Below, one piece after another: positions 2,319-26,016 of a DNA stretch of 26,449 nucleotides. Each line of letters opens with the position of its first letter. Positions within the stretch are counted from its first letter, which is position 1. The notes under the pieces are model-generated. The model ran no database searches. It was not told the DNA's origin and saw only the letters and a list, made by a program, of their open reading frames with translations. This DNA is from a virus. The DNA is taken from positions 1 through 26,449 of IMG/VR virus record IMGVR_UViG_3300031718_000431. One strand, written 5' to 3'. The position numbers were made by a program, and so were the translations under genes.

Positions 2319-3659
2319 GTGGCAAATCTGAAAGCCAAGACGGTCCTGATCTACGACTACGGCCAATACGTCGAGCTTGCCGTCACGCTGTCAAAGTCGT
2401 TCGGCCGCACGCTGTACTACGCGCCATGGTTCGATGGCGGCAATCCGACATCTCGAATTCTACGCATTGGTCAGGGCTTCGAAGGCGTCGAGCGGGTCGA
2501 AGAGATGTGGCCCCACATTGATGACATCGATCTTGTGGTCTTTCCCGACGTGTACGAAGCGGGACTGCAGGAATATCTTGTGTCGATCGGCAAGCGCGTC
2601 TGGGGCTGTCGCAGCGGTGCGGACCTGGAGCTCGATCGCGTCAAGTCGAAAGAGGCCAGCAAGAAACTCGGCATTGATATCGCGCCCTATACGATTGTCA
2701 CAGGCTTTGGCGCCTTACGCAAACATCTGAAAACGCATCCCGACGTGCACGTTAAAATCTCCAAGACTCGTGGCGACATGGAGACCTTTCACTCGCCGGA
2801 TTATGTCGCCAGCGAGCAGCGTCTCGACGAGCTTGAGCATAAGCTTGGCGCCAAAAAGAGTGTGATGGAATTCATTGTCGAGGAAGGCATCAACGATGCC
2901 GTCGAGTGCGGTTACGACGGCTACACGATTGATGGTGCCTATCCGCGCGAAGCTTTGGTCGGCGTCGAAGTCAAGGGTGACGCCTATATCGGTCACGCCA
3001 TGCGCTACCGCGAAATTCCGGAACAAGTGCGATCGGTCAACGAGAAACTGGCGCCGGCACTCGAGCGCTACGGCGTGCGCGGGTTTCTTTCGACTGAGAT
3101 TCGTTGCAATGAGGATGGCGCATTCCTGATCGATCCGTGCATGCGCTGTGGCACGCCGCCGAGCGAACTCTATCAGGCGATGATTACCAATCTTGCGGAG
3201 ATCATCTGGGAAGGCGCGGACGGTATCATGGTCGAGCCGGAATACGCGGAGAAGTGGGGCGCGATGATCCTGCTGCAGTCCGAATGGGTCATGGATAATT
3301 GGCAGCACATCTCGTTTCCGCCGCCGATCCGCGATAGCGTCAAGCTGCACAACGCGACGGTGATCGAAGGGGAGTATTACGTCATTCCTCACGGTGATCG
3401 ACGTATGCAAGTCGGCGCTGTAATCGGCATGGGCGCCACGGCGCAAAAGGCGATTGACGCCTGTGCGGAAATCGCCGAACAGGTCGAAGGCCACTTGATC
3501 ACAAAGCCGATCGATACACTCGACGAGGCTCGCGAGGAACTGGAAAAGATCATAGGCCCCGATAAGCCGGTGTCGCTGCAGCAACGTAAGGCGGACGCGG
3601 CGCGCAAGGCCGGGAAGATTTCTGACAAACAATACGAACGCATGATTGAGGGCGTCTAA
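2319..3659 (+). CDS. ATP-grasp-fold ligase-like protein
   Basis: The 446-aa product looks like an ATP-grasp enzyme of the glycinamide-ribonucleotide synthetase/biotin-carboxylase type, although it is divergent. An N-terminal Rossmann-like pre-grasp region (VLIYDYGQY) covers about residues 8-110. The ATP-grasp part follows with a candidate nucleotide-binding lysine in VHVKISK (K146), a hinge strand MEFIVEEG (183-190) whose E188/E189 would contact adenine, and GVEVKG. The catalytic-site pattern STEIR (258-262) to LIDPCMRCG (270-278) stands in place of the usual E...NxR metal-binding pair. The last 30 residues form a basic helix ending GKISDKQYERM, shared with neighbouring small proteins. Start is GTG, three bases after the previous stop. 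ATP-grasp enzymes join a carboxylate to an amine or thiol through an acyl-phosphate; the substrate here is unknown. A host-derived purine or peptide-ligase role is possible. Confidence 0.7.
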   Translation: MANLKAKTVLIYDYGQYVELAVTLSKSFGRTLYYAPWFDGGNPTSRILRIGQGFEGVERVEEMWPHIDDIDLVVFPDVYEAGLQEYLVSIGKRVWGCRSGADLELDRVKSKEASKKLGIDIAPYTIVTGFGALRKHLKTHPDVHVKISKTRGDMETFHSPDYVASEQRLDELEHKLGAKKSVMEFIVEEGINDAVECGYDGYTIDGAYPREALVGVEVKGDAYIGHAMRYREIPEQVRSVNEKLAPALERYGVRGFLSTEIRCNEDGAFLIDPCMRCGTPPSELYQAMITNLAEIIWEGADGIMVEPEYAEKWGAMILLQSEWVMDNWQHISFPPPIRDSVKLHNATVIEGEYYVIPHGDRRMQVGAVIGMGATAQKAIDACAEIAEQVEGHLITKPIDTLDEAREELEKIIGPDKPVSLQQRKADAARKAGKISDKQYERMIEGV

Positions 3660-8875: not shown

Positions 8876-9164
8876 CTATTACGAGGCTAGGCTCTAAGAT
8901 AGCGGGAAGCGCCCGCACGTATGCGGGCTAAGCCGAGTGAGCAATCTGAGGGTTGCTGCGATCCACTTGATCCTCACCAGTTTCGTCCGCGCCACGATAC
9001 GGCGCACGATGGTCCGGGCTATCGACTTCAAATCCCGCCGCAGGCGACCGCGATATGGCGCAACGCTATTCCTTTCAGTCCCGGCGTGAGCGCGCTTCTG
9101 TCAGGCTCGCCCAAGAGCGGACTGCCGTGGTCTCGACGATACCGAGAAACAAGAAAGGTTTGTC
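8876..9164 (+). other. 290-base interval with competing short frames
   Basis: No gene here is convincing. Three overlapping + frames exist: 8921-9181 (86 aa, no ribosome site, codon third positions unlike neighbours), 8937-9089 (GTG start, 50 aa, Arg-rich) and 9055-9201 (48 aa, begins MAQRYSFQSRRERASV). The last has the most protein-like look and a weak AGGCGA upstream, and would run 37 bases into the scaffold gene. The interval also holds a perfect hairpin at 8911-8928. It most likely serves as leader for the scaffold-capsid transcript, possibly with one tiny basic protein. Confidence 0.35.
8911..8928 (+). terminator. Perfect GC-rich hairpin, possible terminator or processing site
   Basis: GCCCGCA (8911-8917) pairs perfectly with TGCGGGC (8922-8928) around a four-base loop CGTA. 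No T-run follows, so it is not a canonical intrinsic terminator. Its place between the end of one gene group and the scaffold-capsid pair suggests partial termination or an RNA-processing structure. Confidence 0.35.
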
Positions 9165-10223
9165 ATGGCGCAAGCGTTTGATCCGATTGAACAGGCGATG
9201 ATCGAAACAAATCGTGAGATTGCCGCCGAAGCGTGGGACCAGGAATCGACTCCGCTCGATACCGACAACGACCGAACGCCTGAAACGACGGGTGAGGGCC
9301 TTGAAGGCCAGCACGTCGAAGACGACGAGGCGGCCGAAGTTGGCGAAGGTGGAGAAGCCGAAACTGTCGAAGCGGCGGAAGGTGAAGGCGAGACAGTGGC
9401 GGCGGCAAAGCCCGAAGACGGCAAGCCGGCGCCGAAAGTCGAAGCTGAAGAGAAGCCGAACGGCAGAGTACCGCCGGCGCGACTTCGCGAGCAGACGGAG
9501 CGGACACGGGCGGCGGAAGCCGAGCGCGATACGCTCAAGGCGCAGCTTGAGACTGAGAAGTCAGAGCGGCGCCGCGAACTCGATGCGCTCAATGCCAAGT
9601 TCGACGGTGTGCTGGCGGCCATTCGCCAACAGCAACAGCCGCAAAAAACGAACGGCGAAGCCGCAGCGGAAGAAGTCATTCCCGATATTTTTGAAGACCC
9701 GAAAGGGTACGATGCGCGCCTGCAAAAGACGGTTGACACCAAATTATCGGGGATCGACCAGAAGTTGCAGGTCATGCGCGTCGATTTGTCGATGCAGATG
9801 GCGCATGACATCTACAAAGGCGACTTCGAAAAAGCCGTGGAATGGGCGAAGCAAACCTCGGCTGACAACCCGGAGCAGCGTGCGGTCGCGGAGCGTATCT
9901 GGAAGAGTTCGAATCCTGGCAAGGAACTCGTCCTGGCGTACAAGCGTGCGGAAGCCTTGCGCACGGTAGGCGACGATCCCGCAGCCTACGAAACCCGGAT
10001 CAAAGACGAAACACGTAAAGCGCTGATGGCCGATCCCGAATTCCGCAAGACTCTCATCGCAGAGTTGCGCGGCGAAGCGGCGACCGGCGCGAACGGCAAA
10101 CCCAACACCATCACCCGCCTGCCTCCATCGCTCGCCTCTGCCGCCGGCAGTTCGCGCGCGGGCGAAACCGCCGATGCGTTCGACGGCTCGGATCAGGCAA
10201 TCGCGAACTCCGCTTGGCGCTAA
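9165..10223 (+). CDS. Scaffold protein (procapsid assembly)
   Basis: This 352-aa protein directly precedes the capsid gene, where scaffolds sit in P22- and N4-like head modules. Residues 20-85 are highly acidic (Glu/Asp/Ala-rich, for example EDDEAAEVGEGGEAE). Residues 95-150 form a strong coiled coil (RLREQTERTRAAEAERDTL, QLETEKSERRREL), and a Gln-rich hinge follows. The C-terminal part has charged helices, as needed to bind coat protein. There are no cysteines. AAGAAAGG seven bases before ATG is a good ribosome site. Scaffold proteins guide coat assembly and then leave or are degraded. Identity rests on composition, coiled coil and position rather than a sequence motif. Confidence 0.8.
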   Translation: MAQAFDPIEQAMIETNREIAAEAWDQESTPLDTDNDRTPETTGEGLEGQHVEDDEAAEVGEGGEAETVEAAEGEGETVAAAKPEDGKPAPKVEAEEKPNGRVPPARLREQTERTRAAEAERDTLKAQLETEKSERRRELDALNAKFDGVLAAIRQQQQPQKTNGEAAAEEVIPDIFEDPKGYDARLQKTVDTKLSGIDQKLQVMRVDLSMQMAHDIYKGDFEKAVEWAKQTSADNPEQRAVAERIWKSSNPGKELVLAYKRAEALRTVGDDPAAYETRIKDETRKALMADPEFRKTLIAELRGEAATGANGKPNTITRLPPSLASAAGSSRAGETADAFDGSDQAIANSAWR

Positions 10224-10249
10224 CCGTCTTTGCTCGGTGAGCGGACGGT
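10223..10249 (+). promoter_or_regulatory. Hairpin between scaffold and capsid genes
   Basis: ACCGTC (10223-10228) pairs with GACGGT (10244-10249), and inside it GCTC (10232-10235) pairs with GAGC (10239-10242) around a GGT loop. The structure starts on the last base of the scaffold stop codon and ends about 20 bases before the capsid Shine-Dalgarno sequence AAAGGA. No T-run follows. It may stabilise or insulate the capsid mRNA, which must be translated far more than the scaffold. Confidence 0.45.
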
Positions 10250-10282
10250 CGCGCGCCATGCGATCCTGAAAGGATAAAGACC

Positions 10283-11446
10283 ATGGCAGTCTCTGCCGTC
10301 GCAACAAACAACAAACTGATCGTCTTCCGCAAGAAGACGTATCGGGAATACGTGCGTGAGAATCTGTTCTCGCCCTATATGGGGCCGTCCGACAATTCGA
10401 TCATCCACATCATCACCGACCTTGACAAAGGCGGTAAGTCTGGTGGCGAGCAGATCAACATTCCGCTCATCGCTCGCTTGCAGGCGCAGGGCGTCGGCAT
10501 CGGGCCGCTGGTCGGCAATGAAGAGCAGCTCGACAATTCGGGCATGCGGATGTTCATCGACTGGTCGCGCAACGCGATTGCGACCAACAAGGCCGAGGAA
10601 CAGAAATCCTCGTTCGATCTCGCCGCTGAATTTCAACCCCGTCTGAGCGATTGGGGCAAGGAAAAGCAGCGCGACGAAATCTGCGACGGCTTCTATGCGT
10701 TGCCGAACTCGGCGGCGCCGGCGGGTCTCGGGTCTCAAGCTGGGCAGCGGGTCAACGGAATCCTGATGGATTTGGCGACGCCGGCCCAGCGCAATACCTG
10801 GATTACCGATAATGCCGACCGCGTCCTGATCGGTTCCAGCAACGGCGCCAATCTCGTAGCCGGCAACTTCGCGGCGTCAATGGCGAATATCACCACCGGC
10901 ATGACGCTGTCGCACGCTCTGGTCACGCGGATGAAGCGATCGGCGAAGAAAGCCAATCCGCGCATCCGGCCCTACAAGCTCAAGGACAACGGGACGGAAT
11001 GGTTCGTGTTGTTCGTCGGTCAGGAACAGTTCCGCGACGCGCAAAACGACGCCACGATCTTGACCAACAACCAGAACGCCCGCGCCCGCGAGGGTGCGTC
11101 GTACCTGAAAAACCCGATCTTCGTCGATGGCGATCTTCTCGACAACGGCGTGATCATCCGGGAAATTCCGGAACTGTCGCTGCGCTTGCCGACGTTCTAC
11201 CAGACGGCGGGCTCCGGCGGCGCTCAGGTGGCGCCAGCGTTCATGTGCGGCCAGCAGGCGCAAGCCTGGTGTTGGGGCCAGATACCCAAGGCGACCTTCC
11301 GCCAGGAAAACGACTACGGCTTCGTGCGTGGCGTCGGCGTCGAGATGGCCTATGGCATCGGCAAGGTCGCCAAACTCACTCCGGCGGGCAACCTCAAAGA
11401 GTGGGGCGTCTTCACCGGCTTCTTTGCGGCGGTGGCCGACAACTAA
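10283..11446 (+). CDS. Major capsid protein (N4-gp56 / DUF4043 family)
   Basis: This is the shell-forming coat protein. At 387 aa, the pattern fits the N4-gp56 family: FRKKTYREYVRENLFSPYMG at residues 14-33, then SIIHIITDLDKGGKSGGEQI (a loop rich in Gly/Lys). GNEEQLDNSGMRMFIDWSRN and KAEEQKSSFDLA follow, and later FVLFVGQEQFRD and NPIFVDGDLLDNGVIIREI. AAAGGA precedes the ATG by about eight bases. It follows the scaffold gene after a 60-base gap with a hairpin, and a strong hairpin follows its stop. The P22-type portal paired with this coat family suggests a mosaic head module. Confidence 0.92.
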   Translation: MAVSAVATNNKLIVFRKKTYREYVRENLFSPYMGPSDNSIIHIITDLDKGGKSGGEQINIPLIARLQAQGVGIGPLVGNEEQLDNSGMRMFIDWSRNAIATNKAEEQKSSFDLAAEFQPRLSDWGKEKQRDEICDGFYALPNSAAPAGLGSQAGQRVNGILMDLATPAQRNTWITDNADRVLIGSSNGANLVAGNFAASMANITTGMTLSHALVTRMKRSAKKANPRIRPYKLKDNGTEWFVLFVGQEQFRDAQNDATILTNNQNARAREGASYLKNPIFVDGDLLDNGVIIREIPELSLRLPTFYQTAGSGGAQVAPAFMCGQQAQAWCWGQIPKATFRQENDYGFVRGVGVEMAYGIGKVAKLTPAGNLKEWGVFTGFFAAVADN

Positions 11447-11464
11447 GCCTTTGGCTGATTAAGC

Positions 11465-11490
11465 GCGGCGGCGCTTGACGGTGCCGCCGC
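11465..11490 (+). terminator. Strong GC hairpin after the capsid gene
   Basis: GCGGCGGC (11465-11472) is perfectly complementary to GCCGCCGC (11483-11490). A G-U and a C-G pair can extend it to a ten-base stem around TTGACG. The following bases (TTCACCCTTC) are only modestly T-rich. A terminator after the coat gene is common and limits read-through to less-needed genes; it could also protect the coat mRNA 3' end. Confidence 0.55.
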
Positions 11491-11530
11491 TTCACCCTTC
11501 ACACAACATCGGCCATAGGAGGCCATCATC

Positions 11531-12112
11531 ATGAAACGGAAGATTCTCGCGCGGTTGAGTGAAAGCCGCGCTCTTGTGGCGATCTCAATCCTGCTCGGAC
11601 TGTCGCTTGTTGCATACGCTGCGGTGCCGAACTTTGCGCCGCGGCAGTTCCAAACCCAGCAGACTCACTATCTGCGATTTACCTTCAACTTCAACTCGTG
11701 CACGCCGGTTGCCGGTACGTGTTCGATCAAAGTTGGGGCGGTGCCGTACAATGCGTGGATTTTGCGGGCGTATCAGCAGATCGCAACGTCGTTCAACTCG
11801 CTGACTTCCGACACGTTGTCGATCGGTACGACCGCGACGCCAACCACCGAACTTGTTGCGGCGCAAAGCATCGCGGCGGCGGCTGGTGGCGCAACGGCGC
11901 TGACGGTTGTCTCCACCAACGCCGGTACGGTCGTGACCGGCGATGGCGCAACGCAAACCGGCGGCAACGGCGGCTTCGACATTTGGGCAAGGTGGACTCA
12001 GGTAGGGACGCTGGCGACTGCGGGCGCAGCGAGCTACGTCATCGAATATGCAGGGCCGAACGATGGGTCCTGCAAGACGGTGCCGCTCGGTTCGACCGCA
12101 ATCGCGTGCTGA
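11531..12112 (+). CDS. Capsid-adjacent structural-type protein with signal peptide
   Basis: A strong ribosome site (AGGAGG, nine bases upstream) implies high expression. The body resembles, from memory, a family of small beta-rich phage proteins encoded next to capsid genes, with hallmarks such as YLRFTFNFN, VGAVPYNAWILRAY, TSDTLSIGTTATPTTELVAA and FDIWARWTQVGTLATAGAASYVI. That family is usually called head or virion structural protein. Unlike those, this protein starts with a basic N-region and a hydrophobic segment (ALVAISILLGLSLVAYA, cleavage near AYA). It carries four cysteines (SC, TC in the first quarter; SC and the final C). It may be a membrane-anchored or exported relative, or the N-terminal helix may be kept in the virion. 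The end overlaps the next start by seven bases. Confidence 0.7.
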   Translation: MKRKILARLSESRALVAISILLGLSLVAYAAVPNFAPRQFQTQQTHYLRFTFNFNSCTPVAGTCSIKVGAVPYNAWILRAYQQIATSFNSLTSDTLSIGTTATPTTELVAAQSIAAAAGGATALTVVSTNAGTVVTGDGATQTGGNGGFDIWARWTQVGTLATAGAASYVIEYAGPNDGSCKTVPLGSTAIAC

Positions 12113-13308
12113 ACTTCGTTACCAATGGCCGGGGCGCGGATATCGCGCTCCGGTTCTGTGCCTTCGCGGTCGCGGTGTGCTATTGGCCGGGTATATCCGG
12201 TGCCGCTACATCGCCGCGGTGGGCATTGCTTGCGATCATTGTAGTGGTCGCGCTGATGATCGGCGATCAGCTTAAGGCGACGGTTGCGCATGTCGTCGGT
12301 GTAGTTTTCGTGGTGTGGGCGCTGGCGTCAGTTTGGTGGTCGGCGGCGCCGCTCGATACGGTGGGTGCTTTGTGGAAGCTAATTATTTTGGCGTCCGCAT
12401 TTTGCATCGGGGCAGGGGTTGGCGATCTGCGGCCGGTCTATGGCGGCGCGGCGATGGGCTTGGCGGTATCGAGCGTCATCGCGACCGCACAGTGGCTCGG
12501 TTATCGGCCGCTGCCCGATCTAGAAGTAGGAAACGCGGCCGGCTTGTTCGTTAATCGCCTAATCTTGGCTGAAACCGCTGCGCTGATCGGTGTTGCGCTG
12601 ATCGCTACCCGCATATGGCGATGGTTGCCGGCGATTCTGCCGAGTCTCCTGCTCCCAGGCGAGCGAGGTCCTGTTCTGGCGTTTGGACTAGTGGGCGCGC
12701 TGGCGCTGTGGCGCACGTCGAAAATCGCGGCTGTGGCTGTAGCGATCGGTGCTGCGGTGTTTGTCGCGGCGATAACGGCGCAAAACAATCAGCGCGTCGG
12801 CAGTGCGCAAGAGCGCGTGACGCTGGCGCAATCGACGGTGAAAGCCGTCGGGGTTTTGGGTTATGGTCTCAGCTCTTATCGCGAGTCGGCGCCGCAGCCG
12901 ATCGAAGGCGCCAGAGTCGAGCACGCGCACAACGAGTTTCTAGAAATAGCGTTCGAGCTCGGGTGGGTCGGTGTGCTATTGTGCTTGGGGTTTTTCGGCA
13001 CAGTTGTCGTTGCCGCTGGAGCAGCAGATAAAGCCGATGGACGATTGTTCACAGCGTCAACCTGTGTCGTCCTTGCCGTCATGGTGGAGAGCGTCTTCGC
13101 CTTCCCCTTGCACGAGCCGGCCACCGGGGCTATTGGGCTATTGTGTGCGGGCCGTTGTGTTCGTGCCATGCCTCGTGCTCGCGAGTCGTTTGCTGGTAGC
13201 GGAATACGATTACGCCGATGGCTGGCATCATGCCGGAGATTACTGGCGATCGATGGAAAGTCTTATGCGCGCGGAAGAGTCGTATCCGTTCGATCACCGC
13301 TTCCGTGA
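12106..13308 (+). CDS. O-antigen ligase/polymerase-like membrane protein (Wzy_C type)
   Basis: This polytopic inner-membrane protein of about 400 aa has roughly ten hydrophobic helices (for example WALLAIIVVVALMIGDQL, HVVGVVFVVWALASVWW, AAVAVAIGAAVFVAAITAQ). The signature is in the second half: ERGPVLAFG (186-194), then a large periplasmic loop with GYGLSSYRESAPQ and EHAHNEFLEIAFELGWVG (272-289), typical of O-antigen ligase/Wzy polymerase domains. Such enzymes polymerise O-units or attach them to lipid A-core. The start is taken as GTG 12106, overlapping the preceding stop; the open frame extends further upstream only as shadow. The last 55 residues are Arg-rich and look out of frame compared with the overlapping frame at 13145. 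Temperate phages use such enzymes for seroconversion; here the gene sits among virion genes. Confidence 0.75.
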   Translation: MLNFVTNGRGADIALRFCAFAVAVCYWPGISGAATSPRWALLAIIVVVALMIGDQLKATVAHVVGVVFVVWALASVWWSAAPLDTVGALWKLIILASAFCIGAGVGDLRPVYGGAAMGLAVSSVIATAQWLGYRPLPDLEVGNAAGLFVNRLILAETAALIGVALIATRIWRWLPAILPSLLLPGERGPVLAFGLVGALALWRTSKIAAVAVAIGAAVFVAAITAQNNQRVGSAQERVTLAQSTVKAVGVLGYGLSSYRESAPQPIEGARVEHAHNEFLEIAFELGWVGVLLCLGFFGTVVVAAGAADKADGRLFTASTCVVLAVMVESVFAFPLHEPATGAIGLLCAGRCVRAMPRARESFAGSGIRLRRWLASCRRLLAIDGKSYARGRVVSVRSPLP

Positions 13309-13351
13309 AGCGCCGCCGCAGCGTGAAGCCGGCTGGCTCAAACCACGTTGA
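13145..13351 (+). CDS. Small overlapping frame: membrane-anchored tail of the O-antigen gene or separate protein
   Basis: In the +1 frame relative to the O-antigen gene, a 68-aa frame (GTG 13145; GTG 13157 and 13163 or TTG 13133 are alternatives) has a hydrophobic helix VVFVPCLVLASRLLVAEY. It then reads DGWHHAGDYWRSMESLMRAE and SYPFDHRFREAPP. The PFDHRFR-type ending is reminiscent of C-termini of long O-antigen ligase-like proteins, while the competing frame is Arg-rich junk-like sequence. So this is either a coupled small gene overlapping the previous one by 164 bases, or the true C-terminus reached by a frameshift or after a sequencing error. The preceding protein still ends naturally without it. 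Confidence 0.5.
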   Translation: MRAVVFVPCLVLASRLLVAEYDYADGWHHAGDYWRSMESLMRAEESYPFDHRFREAPPQREAGWLKPR

Positions 13352-13368
13352 ATAACAGGAGAAGTAAA

Positions 13369-13881
13369 ATGGCTGAGAACGACAATGACGGCGATCTTTT
13401 GAACGACGAGCAGTCTGCCGGGGCAGGTCAGCAAGCGGAAGGCCCCGCACCGAAGCGCGGCCGGCCACCGAAAGCCAAGGAAGTATCGGAGCAGGTCACC
13501 TATCGTCCCGGCCCGGAAGGTCCGGCAAGCATCAAATGGCGCGGTCATACTTTCCACGCCAACGTGCCGAAGACGATTACGAGTGCGGAGCATATTGAGG
13601 CCGCGCGGCTCAACCGATTTTTCAAGGTCGGCGATTTTGGCGCGGCAGATGCCGTGCCGTCGAGGGACGAAGTGCCGCTGCCGAAGACTTCGGATCAGTA
13701 CCGCGCTCACGTCGTGGCGTGGATGCCAAAGATGTCAAGCGCCGCGGAGATGGACGCCAAATGGATGAGCGAAGAGCCGCTGCGCCTGGCGTGCGGCGTA
13801 GGCTCCGATGATCTGGAATGGCTGCAAAGCCTGATGGCACCCAAGCACGCGGAATTGCGCAAGGCGGCAATGGCGGGCTGA
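13369..13881 (+). CDS. Hypothetical phage protein with AT-hook-like motif
   Basis: AGGAGAAG five to six bases upstream makes ATG 13369 the clear start, although the frame is open from 13348. Residues 1-28 are acidic and disordered. KRGRPPKAK (residues 29-37) is a classic AT-hook-like sequence that can insert in the DNA minor groove. Residues 43-80 look like a small beta domain (VTYRPGPEGPASIKWRGHTF, NVPKTI), followed by EAARLNRFFKVGDF. The end is helical. I do not know its function. It lies between the O-antigen block and the tail adaptor genes, so it may be a structural protein contacting packaged DNA. Confidence 0.75.
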   Translation: MAENDNDGDLLNDEQSAGAGQQAEGPAPKRGRPPKAKEVSEQVTYRPGPEGPASIKWRGHTFHANVPKTITSAEHIEAARLNRFFKVGDFGAADAVPSRDEVPLPKTSDQYRAHVVAWMPKMSSAAEMDAKWMSEEPLRLACGVGSDDLEWLQSLMAPKHAELRKAAMAG

Positions 13882-13891
13882 GAACTGAGCC

Positions 13892-14248
13892 ATGGCAACG
13901 CGCACGCAAGCTGATCTCGTGCAGAAAATCCTTGAAGTCCTGCAGGTTGTGCCGGAAGGACAGCCTGCGGAGGTTGAGGATACGGCGAGAATCAATATCA
14001 ATCTGCCGTCACTCATCGAAGAGCTTGCGGCACGTGAGATTGTCTATGTGCCGGACCTGACCGTCATCCCCGATGCGTGGTTTCTATCGCTCGCCAAGAT
14101 CGGGGCTTATGAGTTGCGCAACGAGTTTGGTGTGACGGGCGAACTTGCGGCGACGCTTCAGACCGCGAATACCGAAGCGATTCTCAATCTGAAAGTGATG
14201 ACGCGCGGCAAGCCGACTTATGAGCCGTTGCGGACGGTGTCGTTCTGA
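13892..14248 (+). CDS. Tail accessory / head-tail adaptor protein (P22 gp4-like)
   Basis: The 118-aa, mostly helical protein has the pattern TQADLVQKILEVLQVVPEGQ at the N-terminus, then VEDTARINININLPSLIEEL-like helices and a middle section YVPDLTVIPDAWFLSLAKIGAYELRNEFG. Size, helicity and placement directly before a gp10-like protein fit the P22 gp4 group, which docks below the portal to stabilise packaged DNA. The N-terminal lysozyme-like activity of gp4 is not evident. There are no cysteines. The start lies ten bases after the previous stop. The identification is moderate: position is the strongest evidence. Confidence 0.65.
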   Translation: MATRTQADLVQKILEVLQVVPEGQPAEVEDTARININLPSLIEELAAREIVYVPDLTVIPDAWFLSLAKIGAYELRNEFGVTGELAATLQTANTEAILNLKVMTRGKPTYEPLRTVSF

Positions 14249-14257
14249 TGGTGGTTT

Positions 14258-15694
14258 ATGGGCGCGCCAGTTAAAGTCCTGTGGCCGCTATCGACGGCGC
14301 CGGGCGGTAGTCCGCAGGAAAGCGGCGGACGGTTGATCAATTGCTCGGCGGAACCGTTGGGCAAAGAAAACCCGCTGCAAGTGGTGTGGCGGCGCCAAGC
14401 AGGATTGAGTCTGTTTGCCAATCTGGCGCTGGCGGGTTTCCGCGGCGGGATTCTAGTCAACAATCTCGCCTACATCGCGGTCGGTGGTTTCATTGTTACG
14501 GTTGATGATACCGGGACAGTTAGTGTTGCTGGCGCCCTGCCAGGTGCGGATCGCGTGACTTTCGCGCGCGATAACGAAGGCACTCCAGCGATCCAGTGTG
14601 TGTCTCCGGCCAATGGAGCTTTTGCGGTCACATCGTCGAGTGTGACGCCGTTCAACGGCGGCGGTGTGTTACCGGCGCCAAGCTGGGTGGCCTCGCAGGA
14701 TGGGTATTTCTTTTGGGGCATCGGCGATGGGCGGGTCTTCGCGGCTGGGCCAAACTCGACTGCGCTTAATGCGCTGACCTTCATCACGGTTCAATCGCGC
14801 GCTACCGGAAATCTGTTACGTGGCGTTCCGTATCAAGGTCTGATGTGGTTTTTTGCATCGGAGTTCTGCGAGGTATGGTCCGATCAGGCGATTCCGTTTC
14901 CTGCGTTTCCTTATTCCAGGTATGCGGTGATCGACAAAGGCTTGCTCGGGCGCAATGCCATCGCAGGATGGGAAGACGGCTTCGGCCAGTTGTTGTTCGT
15001 CGGAAACGATAACGGCGTCTATTCGCTCAACGGCCCGGCGCCGCAGAAAGTTTCGCCGCCTGATCTTGATCGGTTGATTTCTCAGGTGAGCGATCCGAAC
15101 ACGCTGATCGCCTTTGTCTATACCGCAGCCGGCAAGAGCTATTGGGTGTTGCAATCGCCGACGTGGTGTTGGGAACTGAATCTTAATTCTCAGAAATGGA
15201 ATGAGCGCGAAAGTCTTTCGGGCGGTCTCTCCGGTGTGTGGCGCGCGAACGGCAGTTTGAATGCGTTCAATAAGTGGCTGATCGGCGACGCGCTGTCGGA
15301 TGGCTTGCTCTATATCGACCCGACTGTACAGCAGGAAGTCGGGACGCCCTTGCGCTACCGCTTGGAAAGCGCGCCGGTCGTTGATTTCCCGAATCGTGCT
15401 GTTATCGCCCGATTCGATGGCAACTTCGTTACGGGTGTTGGGCAATCGGCCGGTACGACACAGACGGCGCAAGCGCCGCAATGTTCAATCCAATGCAGCC
15501 GCAACGGCGGAACGACGTGGGACAATCCGCGGCTTCGCGCGCTCGGCGCGCAGGCTGATAGTCGGCGGCGGGTGTATGCAACGCGGTTCGGTCAGGCGAC
15601 CAATCATGGGCCGCGATTCCGGATCGATATTTCCGATGAAGTGTACGCCGCGTTTACAGGTGCAACGATAAGCGACGATCCGAGGGCGCATTGA
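14258..15694 (+). CDS. Packaged DNA stabilisation protein (P22 gp10-like tail hub)
   Basis: This 478-aa protein is close in length to P22 gp10 (472 aa) and follows the gp4-like gene, the same order as in P22. It is beta-rich with repeated blade-like segments, as expected for a beta-propeller hub: GGFIVTVDDTGTVSVAGALP, SQDGYFFWGIGDGRVFAAG, GLMWFFASEFCEVW, GFGQLLFVGNDNGVYSLNG and GKSYWVLQSPTWCWELN. Near the N-terminus GRLINCSAEPLG recalls the conserved start of the family. The C-terminus (QCSRNGGTTWDNPRLRALG) also resembles tail hub proteins. It plugs the portal and carries the tail needle and fibres. It ends in a four-base overlap with a TTG start. Confidence 0.8.
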   Translation: MGAPVKVLWPLSTAPGGSPQESGGRLINCSAEPLGKENPLQVVWRRQAGLSLFANLALAGFRGGILVNNLAYIAVGGFIVTVDDTGTVSVAGALPGADRVTFARDNEGTPAIQCVSPANGAFAVTSSSVTPFNGGGVLPAPSWVASQDGYFFWGIGDGRVFAAGPNSTALNALTFITVQSRATGNLLRGVPYQGLMWFFASEFCEVWSDQAIPFPAFPYSRYAVIDKGLLGRNAIAGWEDGFGQLLFVGNDNGVYSLNGPAPQKVSPPDLDRLISQVSDPNTLIAFVYTAAGKSYWVLQSPTWCWELNLNSQKWNERESLSGGLSGVWRANGSLNAFNKWLIGDALSDGLLYIDPTVQQEVGTPLRYRLESAPVVDFPNRAVIARFDGNFVTGVGQSAGTTQTAQAPQCSIQCSRNGGTTWDNPRLRALGAQADSRRRVYATRFGQATNHGPRFRIDISDEVYAAFTGATISDDPRAH

Positions 15695-16110
15695 ATCCAC
15701 TTCGACCACTGTCGCCACCACAACTTCCCATCGCCGGCTCGCAGCCTCCGGTTCGGGAATATGCCCTTTGGTTTGCGTCGGTCGATACCACGCTGCGCGC
15801 GATGCTCGCGTCGCCGCCGAACGTGCAAGCCGCGAGCTATGTCCTGGCGCTGTCAGACGGATTCGGTATCGTCGAGACGAACGTAGCGGGTGCGAACAAT
15901 CTGACCGTACCGCTCAACGGCGCGATTCCGTTTTTGATCGGAACGAGAATCACCGTGGCGCAAATCGGTGCAGGGACCACGACACTCGTCGCAGCCGCTG
16001 GCGTGACGATCAGAAGTCGGCTGGGTTTGGTGTCAGCCGGGCAGTACGCAGTGTTTTATCTCTACAAGCGCGGCACCGATGAATGGGTAGCGTCTGGCGA
16101 TCTGACTTAG
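15691..16110 (+). CDS. Tail-fibre-type small structural protein
   Basis: The only well-placed start is TTG 15691, overlapping the gp10-like stop (TTGA); a later ATG (15802) would drop 37 residues. After a Pro-rich start, residues 50-139 form a module common in phage tail proteins: SYVLALSDGFGIVETNV, NNLTVPLNGAIPFLIGTRIT, VAQIGAGTTTLVAAAGVTI and DEWVASGDL. This domain is usually beta-rich and found in fibre or capsid-attached proteins. It probably decorates the tail hub or a fibre. There are no cysteines or signal peptide. Confidence 0.75.
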   Translation: MNPLRPLSPPQLPIAGSQPPVREYALWFASVDTTLRAMLASPPNVQAASYVLALSDGFGIVETNVAGANNLTVPLNGAIPFLIGTRITVAQIGAGTTTLVAAAGVTIRSRLGLVSAGQYAVFYLYKRGTDEWVASGDLT

Positions 16111-16121
16111 CGGGGAGAGAC

Positions 16122-17093
16122 ATGCCAAGCATATTCGATATCTTCACCAACAATAACGCTCAAGCCGCCGCAGCCGATCAGATCGGCGGACTCAATACCG
16201 GCTATGGGCTTGCGACGAACGCGATCAACCAAGGTAGCGGAGACCTCACCAATTACTTTGGCCAAGCGCTCCAGCCCTATACACAAAACTACAGCCAAGC
16301 CCAGCAAGGCACGCAAGCCCTCGGCAACGCGCTTGGCTTGAACGGCGGTCCTGCCGGCGCGCAAGCTGCGGCGTCGGCCTATGCGAGTAACCCGGCGTTT
16401 CAGTTTCAGCTTCAGCAGGGCTCGCAGAACGTACTGCGCAACGCCGCACAAACCGGCACGACCGCTTCCGGTGCCACGCTCAACGCGCTGCAGCAGCAGG
16501 GCCAGGGTCTCGCCAACCAAACCTACCAGCAATACATCCAGAACTTGCAGCCGTATCTCGGGCAGTCCAACGCTGCAGCGTCGGGCATCGCCAACGTCAA
16601 TACGGGGCTGGGTCAGGGGCTCAACCAAAACCAAAACTCGCTGGCGAATCTCGGCTGGCAGTACGGCACGGGCACGGGGAATGCGCAGGCGAACGCTCAG
16701 CTTGCACAGGGTACGGCCAACAACAATATTTGGAATGCGATCGGTAGCGGCGCTGGGTTGGGGCTACAGGCGCTCGGAATGTTCTCTGATGAGCGACTGA
16801 AAGAAGAGATCGAGCCGGTGGGAAAGTTGTATGATGGCACGAGCGTCTATCGCTACAACTACATCGGCGATCCGACGCCGCGTATTGGCGTGATGGCGCA
16901 AGAGATCGAAAAGACGCGGCCGGAAGCGGTGTTCGAAGTCGGCGGCTTCAAAGCGGTGGACTACGGAAAGGCCACCGATCTTGCCGCCTATCTGGCGAAG
17001 TTCGGCGATGCGAAGTCGGATAATGTCGTTGCGTTGCCGCTTAAGACTGTGGACAATAAGACCGACTTGGCGCGCTATCTTGAGGCGGCTTGA
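16122..17093 (+). CDS. Gln/Asn-rich virion protein with C-terminal S74 chaperone domain
   Basis: ATG 16122 is favoured by CGGGGAGAGA just upstream; the frame begins earlier at 16083. Residues 1-215 are rich in Gln, Asn, Ala and Gly (IGGLNTGYGLATNAINQG, ALQPYTQNYSQAQQG), predicted helical and low in charge. This type is seen in podovirus internal or ejection proteins. Residues 219-290 form a Peptidase_S74 intramolecular chaperone: FSDERLKEEIEPVG has the catalytic Ser222 and Lys227, followed by GVMAQEIEKTRPEAVFEV and VDYGKATDLAAYL. This domain normally trimerises fibres and then cleaves itself off. The ejection-like body makes the pairing unusual. The stop overlaps the next start (TGATG). Confidence 0.75.
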   Translation: MPSIFDIFTNNNAQAAAADQIGGLNTGYGLATNAINQGSGDLTNYFGQALQPYTQNYSQAQQGTQALGNALGLNGGPAGAQAAASAYASNPAFQFQLQQGSQNVLRNAAQTGTTASGATLNALQQQGQGLANQTYQQYIQNLQPYLGQSNAAASGIANVNTGLGQGLNQNQNSLANLGWQYGTGTGNAQANAQLAQGTANNNIWNAIGSGAGLGLQALGMFSDERLKEEIEPVGKLYDGTSVYRYNYIGDPTPRIGVMAQEIEKTRPEAVFEVGGFKAVDYGKATDLAAYLAKFGDAKSDNVVALPLKTVDNKTDLARYLEAA

Positions 17094-24930: not shown

Positions 24931-26016
24931 ATGCTAAATCAAAGAACCTTCGTCTTTCTTTTGTTGTTCGCGACAGTCGTTCCGTTTTTCATCGGCGCGC
25001 TCACCGTTTTCGATCTGATTGGCGTTTCGTGGCTTATCTCATTGATCGCGTTTTTAGCTCTTATCCACGTTCCAATGACAGCCTATTTGTTTTTCGATGG
25101 CGAGATTCGAGCGCAGATGGCGCGCCGGAAGCTGATGATGATCGGCGGTTGCGTGTTGCTCATGGTTCTGTCGTTGGTATTTTTTACGGCGGTCACGGTC
25201 GAGTTTGAGGCGCAGCAGACGAAAATCATAAGCTGTTTTGTCCTGGCCGCGGTGATGTGGCAGCACTGGCATTTCGGCAAGCAGAATATCGGTGTCTTGG
25301 CGTTGGCGCGCATTGCGACGAATAGCGGCCCACTGATGAAATTTGAACGCTATACGATGACGGCCGCAAGCATCTGCGGGATCGCCGCGGCCTATCTTGT
25401 TGTCGGTAAGGCGACGCAGGGTGTGTTATGGTCTTTTGATGCGGGCCAGTTTCGGTGGCTTCAGTATCTCATCGCCGCCGCGGCGTTGGGCTGTGTGATG
25501 TTAAATATCGCTCGGTATACGGCGGGTACGGGGGCGCTGTATTTGTTGGGCGTCTGTTTCTTTTTACCGCAGTTTTTGGCGGTCGATCTGCCGCAGTATG
25601 TTTATATTTTCGGTTCATCGATTTTGGCTCATGGCACGCAATATATTTTAATCCTGTTTTATCACTCTCTCGGTTTGGTTGATCTTAATCGCCGCGTCTC
25701 CGGTCAACGAAAAATGGCTCAGACGTTGTGGTTATTTGCTCCGCTGTTTTTCTTCGCGTTGACCTTCGCGATTGCGACTAATTTCTACACCAGCCACAGC
25801 CTGTGGAGTTTTAACGACGCGGTGACGCAGATTAGTGCCGTTGCTCAGATCAAAATCGGTCCAGCAACGATCTCGGCCATTGCATCTGGGTTGATCTGGG
25901 GGATTTTGCTCTGTCATTTTTGGCTTGATTCATTCTTTTGGCGGCTGAAAGAAAGCGGACCGCGACAATGGGTGAAATCGCGATACGCATTTTTGTTTGC
26001 TCACGACGGGAAGTGA
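24931..26016 (+). CDS. Polytopic membrane protein with conserved-looking His residues, unknown family
   Basis: The 361-aa protein has about ten hydrophobic helices (from about residues 7-27 to 309-338). Histidines sit inside or at the ends of helices: H46 (LIHVPMTAY), H112 and H114 (WQHWHFGKQ), H234 (LAHGTQ), H245 (FYHSLG) and H329 (CHFWLDSFFW, with D333). This resembles metal-binding membrane enzymes in general style, such as the Brp/Blh beta-carotene dioxygenases, and from memory an uncharacterised bacterial family ending in H-F/Y-x-x-D-x-x-x-W. I cannot place it with confidence. Codon use is more T-rich than neighbouring genes, hinting at acquisition from a host. It lies downstream of the fibre block; a simple holin is unlikely from its size. 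Confidence 0.7.
   Translation: MLNQRTFVFLLLFATVVPFFIGALTVFDLIGVSWLISLIAFLALIHVPMTAYLFFDGEIRAQMARRKLMMIGGCVLLMVLSLVFFTAVTVEFEAQQTKIISCFVLAAVMWQHWHFGKQNIGVLALARIATNSGPLMKFERYTMTAASICGIAAAYLVVGKATQGVLWSFDAGQFRWLQYLIAAAALGCVMLNIARYTAGTGALYLLGVCFFLPQFLAVDLPQYVYIFGSSILAHGTQYILILFYHSLGLVDLNRRVSGQRKMAQTLWLFAPLFFFALTFAIATNFYTSHSLWSFNDAVTQISAVAQIKIGPATISAIASGLIWGILLCHFWLDSFFWRLKESGPRQWVKSRYAFLFAHDGK

Follow-up and report, generated by a model that had tools for sequence, protein, structure and literature searches.

The end of a phage gene predicted to encode a WaaL-type (Wzy_C) membrane glycan ligase or polymerase is overlapped by a conserved module in the +1 frame. This module is more surprising than the enzyme gene itself, and the whole is a variant of Wzy_C enzymes. 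The +1 relation of the module to the enzyme gene is found in 21 of 21 contigs, the +1 frame is under selection, and a literature search of incomplete coverage found no description of such an overlap, an arrangement that we thus did not find described earlier. The best explanation, to which we give about an even chance, is that a WaaL-type enzyme is made with the virion proteins, accompanied by a separate +1-frame partner protein consisting of a helix and a TPR-like module.

Gene neighbourhood

The window, i.e. the whole stretch of DNA analysed, is a 26,449-base IMG/VR virus fragment carrying genes for TerL, a P22-like portal, the major capsid protein (MCP), and Hc3 on the + strand. There, the Wzy_C gene is preceded by the capsid/decoration genes and followed by the head-completion genes, as follows:

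10283..11446, + strand: major capsid protein (PF13252, 1e-34; phrog_334, 3.6e-64)
11531..12112, + strand: upstream neighbour of the Wzy_C gene, conserved after the MCP, decoration/cement-like by position only
12106..13308, + strand: predicted WaaL/Wzy_C-type membrane glycan ligase or polymerase, 400 aa, GTG start (Pfam, AF2 model)
12928..12972, + strand: active-site-type loop H275-N-X9-G286-X2-G289, putative counterpart of the WaaL H338 loop (alignment, hhalign)
13147..13152, + strand: junction GCGGGC, Ala-Gly in the 0 frame and CGG Arg in the +1 frame, site at which constraint passes from the 0 to the +1 frame
13148..13351, + strand: overlapping +1-frame ORF, predicted membrane helix and TPR-like module with the pattern AE..YA.GW....YPF..RFRE
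13369..13881, + strand: next gene, kept in the head-completion block, with an AGGAG Shine-Dalgarno just after the stop of the +1 ORF
13892-14248, + strand: small conserved gene (phrog_29314)
14258-15694, + strand: head-closure Hc3 gene (phrog_578)

The upstream gene at 11531..12112, for which a Pfam scan gave no match, lies at the same place in L001, L002, and L072 with 41-62% identity. The seven-base overlap between this gene and the Wzy_C gene, pointed out in an earlier note on this DNA, is present in the window but is not conserved, the two genes being 4 bases apart in L001 and separated by an additional gene in L002.

Several other features of the window were recorded. The gene at 2319-3659, between TerL and portal, is ATP-grasp-like by eye, with about 49-62% identity in relatives and no Pfam match above the cut-off. 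The MCP is 32-35% identical to that of the cyanophages Pam1, Pam5, and Pan3 and of phage CBW1004C-Prop1, and the close relatives found here for it are mostly metagenomic. A C-terminal Peptidase_S74 (endosialidase chaperone) domain is carried at 16083-17093, and a 361-aa hydrophobic, probably multi-pass protein without meaningful Pfam or PHROG match is encoded near the fragment end (24931-26016).

A WaaL-type membrane enzyme

The ORF at 12106-13308 is present as described, on the + strand with a GTG start and 400 codons, and its previous assignment to an O-antigen ligase/polymerase-like family holds: it matches Wzy_C PF04932 with E 4.6e-10 and 39.9 bits (Pfam gathering cut-off 31.7), the His of its loop is invariant in 19/19 sequences, and its top structural match is WaaL. 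An AlphaFold2 model built from a 19-sequence alignment (pLDDT 87, pTM 0.84) displays 12 membrane helices, as in WaaL, so that the earlier count of about ten was too low. The structural comparison with WaaL/Wzy that had been proposed gives WaaL 7tpg as the best solved match of this model (Foldseek E 7.4e-6; VIA-align Z 24.3, rmsd 3.8), with 320 residues aligned over model residues 2-355 at 17% identity, the next matches being FtsW/RodA with Z 9-12. The family and the fold are therefore those of Wzy_C and WaaL and not those of an unrelated transporter. The WaaL-like core ends near residue 351-355, at about nt 13160-13170.

The loop first noticed as HAHNEFLE reads V-E-H-A-H275-N-E-F-L-E-I-A-F-E-L-G286-W-V-G and contains the HX9-10G motif in the form H275 N X9 G286. 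Both H275 and G286 are invariant across the 19 aligned sequences, the His loop thus being kept in the relatives, and H275 pairs with H338 of E. coli WaaL in a short, weak hhalign alignment of 20 columns (WaaL 334-353). R237, a candidate counterpart of WaaL R215 or R288, is nearly invariant in the same alignment. In WaaL, R215, R288, and H338 were reported to be important, PglL being reported to share them (PMC3643930). For both WaaL and the Wzy-beta of phage D3, the motif His was described as essential (PMC4815439).

Compared to WaaL (PDB 7tpg, and E. coli WaaL for the loop), the phage protein shares the 12-helix fold over residues 2-355 and the His loop aligned to H338, but it is phage-encoded, sits in a late slot, comes with the extra +1-frame helix/TPR-like module, and is only 17% identical, its ligase activity being a prediction. 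No hit to the enzyme was found in NCBIfam, no significant match in PHROGs, and nothing meaningful in the PDB by sequence; likewise, tblastn of named phages and plasmids with the window protein, and of named phages with the relatives L095 and L106, gave no match. From family membership and modelled fold, the product of the gene at 12106-13308 is predicted to be a membrane protein of the WaaL type (Wzy_C) that ligates or polymerises glycan. Nevertheless, that its substrate is "O-antigen" is assumed, because polymerases and protein O-glycan transferases fall within Wzy_C too.

Relatives and genomic slots

A direct search identified two viral contigs whose genes at this location are 48% and 45% identical to that of the window. 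The set was enlarged via MCP relatives, a scan in which 8 of 81 records were positive for PF04932, and wider profile scans, the final set being 21 contigs with the gene, window counted. The synteny of these relatives agrees with the late position proposed earlier, in the form of two recurring late-operon slots. The head-tail slot, after the MCP and the decoration-like gene, is occupied in four contigs (the window, L001, L002, and L072), and the other, by TerL and/or upstream of ATP-grasp/portal genes, in 12 contigs (L095-L103, L110, L118, and L123; L104 also belongs there, as a repeat of L103). For L105, L106, L111, L112, and L113, the other genes in the fetched stretch show no detectable similarity to those of the window, except for a weak TerL match in L113. 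In relatives devoid of the gene, the slot of the window is occupied by small, mostly non-membrane genes. In L113 (4983-6676), the Wzy core ORF is split over two frames, through real damage or sequencing error, and the +1 module is still open.

An overlapping frame at the end of the gene

At the gene end, the +1 frame reads R-A-helix-AE..Y..GW....YPFDHRFR in the window, L001, and L002. The module was detected by profile HMM in 20 contigs (weakly in L105 and L111) and by inspection in L112, and neither an in-frame module nor a non-overlapping module gene was found among the 21 contigs. The spacing between the H-x-P motif of the 0 frame and the A-E motif of the +1 frame is constant in all 21. At the junction, GCGGG is nearly invariant, GCG making up 18/20 Ala codons as compared to a usage of 43%, and the +1 Arg codon CGG is conserved at -5. 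While the 0-frame tails stop at varying places and are not conserved, the +1 residues are conserved beyond the 0-frame stop. A sequencing error behind the shifted frame was rejected, the same shift being present in 21 contigs.

In the window, the open +1 frame spans 12950-13351. The gene end formerly given as 13308 is thus right for the 0-frame stop, but the conserved +1-frame ORF continues to 13351. The 60 bases at 13309-13368, seemingly intergenic, are mostly taken up by the end of this ORF.

Selection on the two frames

According to codon-position counts, substitutions upstream of the junction concentrate at 0-frame third positions, whereas downstream of it, in the clade of the window, variation falls at +1 third positions, with values of 0.60/0.43/0.13 for 0-frame positions 1/2/3 over bases 0..30. 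In the other clade, the frame switch is less sharp and occurs from about +24. Constraint passes from the 0 frame to the +1 frame at the end of the WaaL-like core. Within the overlap, comparison of the window with L001 gives a dN of 0.616 and a dS of 0.127 in the 0 frame, against 0.283 and 1.275 in the +1 frame, and comparison of L096 with L097 gives 0.121 and 0.074 against 0.065 and 0.248. In both pairs, dN/dS is thus above 1 in the 0 frame and about 0.2-0.3 in the +1 frame.

No +1 stop is found from -66 to -6 in the 21 contigs, compared to 7.0 expected; this upstream depletion is only suggestive, because the +2 frame likewise departs from the null, with depletion over other intervals. Synonymous recoding kept the frame contrast, but its scores are inflated by shared ancestry (even the +2 frame reaches z 14), and reliance is therefore placed on the frame contrast and on dN/dS, which show that the +1 frame is under selection.

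Nature of the module

Longer +1 tails are present in L105, L111, L112, and L113, with weak TPR hits for those of L111 and L113. The L105 module (133 aa), predicted from a 20-row alignment with a pLDDT of 90.6, consists of a 25-residue helix followed by helical hairpins, and TPR proteins dominate among the PDB matches listed by Foldseek, with a probability of about 1.00, TM-scores of about 0.5-0.6, and E about 0.02. AF2 is reported to be able to assign high confidence to short spurious sequences (PMC13294457). The 67-aa +1 module of the window has no Pfam match, the TPR resemblance being confined to the longer tails. The model thus predicts for the L105 +1 frame a membrane helix and a TPR-like module, and the fold is taken from this longer version.

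Among the bacterial homologues, sampled in Acidobacteriota only, a single frame of L004, L132, and L134 comprises the core end, a basic linker of 16-20 aa, a second helix, and a TPR or TPR-like sequence, the TPR being assigned by Pfam in L004 and TPR-like sequence by eye in the other single-frame homologues; many other bacterial homologues are devoid of a helix-TPR extension. The phage genes resemble these Wzy_C-TM-TPR proteins by having the core, then a helix and TPR-like sequence, but differ in that their two helices overlap in different frames. Since the Acidobacteriota homologues carry core, linker, helix, and TPR in one frame, the phage arrangement looks like the bacterial architecture minus the linker, with the two helices overlapping in the DNA.

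How the module may be made

In the explanation that we favour, the phage would probably make the WaaL-type enzyme together with the virion proteins, and the +1 module would be translated separately as a small membrane protein, with an N-in/C-out helix placing the module on the periplasmic side, the two proteins working as partners while the enzyme would transfer the glycan. Such a separate N-in/C-out protein would preserve the bacterial topology, with a helix coming from the cytoplasm and the module outside. In L106 and L113, the junction itself is marked by an ATG. An NTG within -11..+9 occurs in 18/21 contigs, against a background of 53% in comparable stretches, but no start codon is common to all 21 contigs, L098 being without any from -92 to +37, and a search for a Shine-Dalgarno of the +1 ORF gave no clear signal. 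Embedded phage genes such as Rz/Rz1 are comparable in that a small protein of the envelope is read from a shifted frame within a second gene, although they differ from the +1 module in function and fold.

Alternatively, programmed frameshifting (+1 or -2) near GCG GGN could fuse the +1 module to the enzyme and yield two isoforms, namely the core with a short tail and the core with the helix and the TPR-like module. This reading, which we hold tentatively, would account for the constant spacing between the motifs of the two frames, for the near invariance of GCGGG, for the conserved CGG at -5, and for the missing universal start codon, L098 having none. Nevertheless, the slippery-site search found only GCGGG to be shared, with neither a common slippery run nor a common slow stop codon; the fusion would leave no loop between the two helices, unlike in the bacterial homologues; and a stop-free +1 frame upstream of the junction would not be needed for a shift at the junction. 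Separate translation is placed somewhat ahead of frameshifting. A two-part glycan ligase in overlapping frames without linker DNA, for which programmed recoding would produce two isoforms at a set ratio from one mRNA, is conceivable at clearly less than even chance.

Expression and possible roles

An integrase is present in 11/15 scanned relatives of at least 40 kb, and it lies 17-22 kb from the Wzy_C gene in the four relatives in which the distance could be measured (G009, G182, G183, and G185). In these four, the gene is thus not located beside the integrase or att site in the manner of a conversion cassette, the window itself being a fragment. In addition, no promoter-like site was found on the + strand of the window at 9000-15000. 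Given the head-tail slot in 3 related contigs and the terminase-side slot, also a late one, in 12, together with an integrase at least 17 kb away and the lack of a + strand promoter-like site, the genomic arrangement makes late expression, together with the virion proteins, likely.

By family, the enzyme would act on the outer face of the inner membrane and transfer a lipid-linked glycan there, and a late change or capping of the surface glycan could stop progeny from binding debris or exclude competing phages. In a lysogen, the enzyme could instead change the host surface type. That the gene is a lysogenic-conversion gene expressed from the prophage, like phage D3 wzy-beta or an Acinetobacter prophage wzy, would be compatible with the overlapping frame, and phage-borne Wzy enzymes with this effect are known (PMC4815439, PMC9241936). 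The resemblance to D3 Wzy-beta lies in a phage-borne Wzy_C enzyme with the essential-His motif (PMC4815439), but the D3 gene belongs to a serotype-conversion unit, whereas the present one is embedded among head genes, on the same strand as the structural block, with an overlapping module. This embedding, the lack of a promoter-like site, and the distance to the integrase make lysogenic conversion rather unlikely, although position alone does not decide against it because many relatives carry integrases.

A PglL-like transferase, with proteins of the virion or the host as acceptors instead of LPS or capsule, is still less probable. The Wzy_C domain and the key residues are common to WaaL and PglL (PMC3643930), and the gene sits among virion genes, but the family specific to PglL (PglL_A, PF15864) is absent, the Pfam scan of the enzyme at E<=1 giving Wzy_C alone. 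Finally, although overlapping frames always share some constraint, it is extremely improbable that the +1 ORF results from conservation of the 0 frame or from errors in sequencing, which is contradicted by the substitution pattern, by the identical register in 21 contigs, and by +1 residues conserved past the 0-frame stop next to unconserved 0-frame tails.

Significance

Remodelling of host surface sugars by phage enzymes is known chiefly from the conversion genes of prophages. The recurrence of a WaaL-like enzyme at two late-operon positions within a group of temperate phages suggests a remodelling timed to virion assembly. Annotation ending at the 0-frame stop misses the module throughout this gene group. 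The overlap represents a testable case, either of a protein split into overlapping genes or of recoding in a membrane enzyme.
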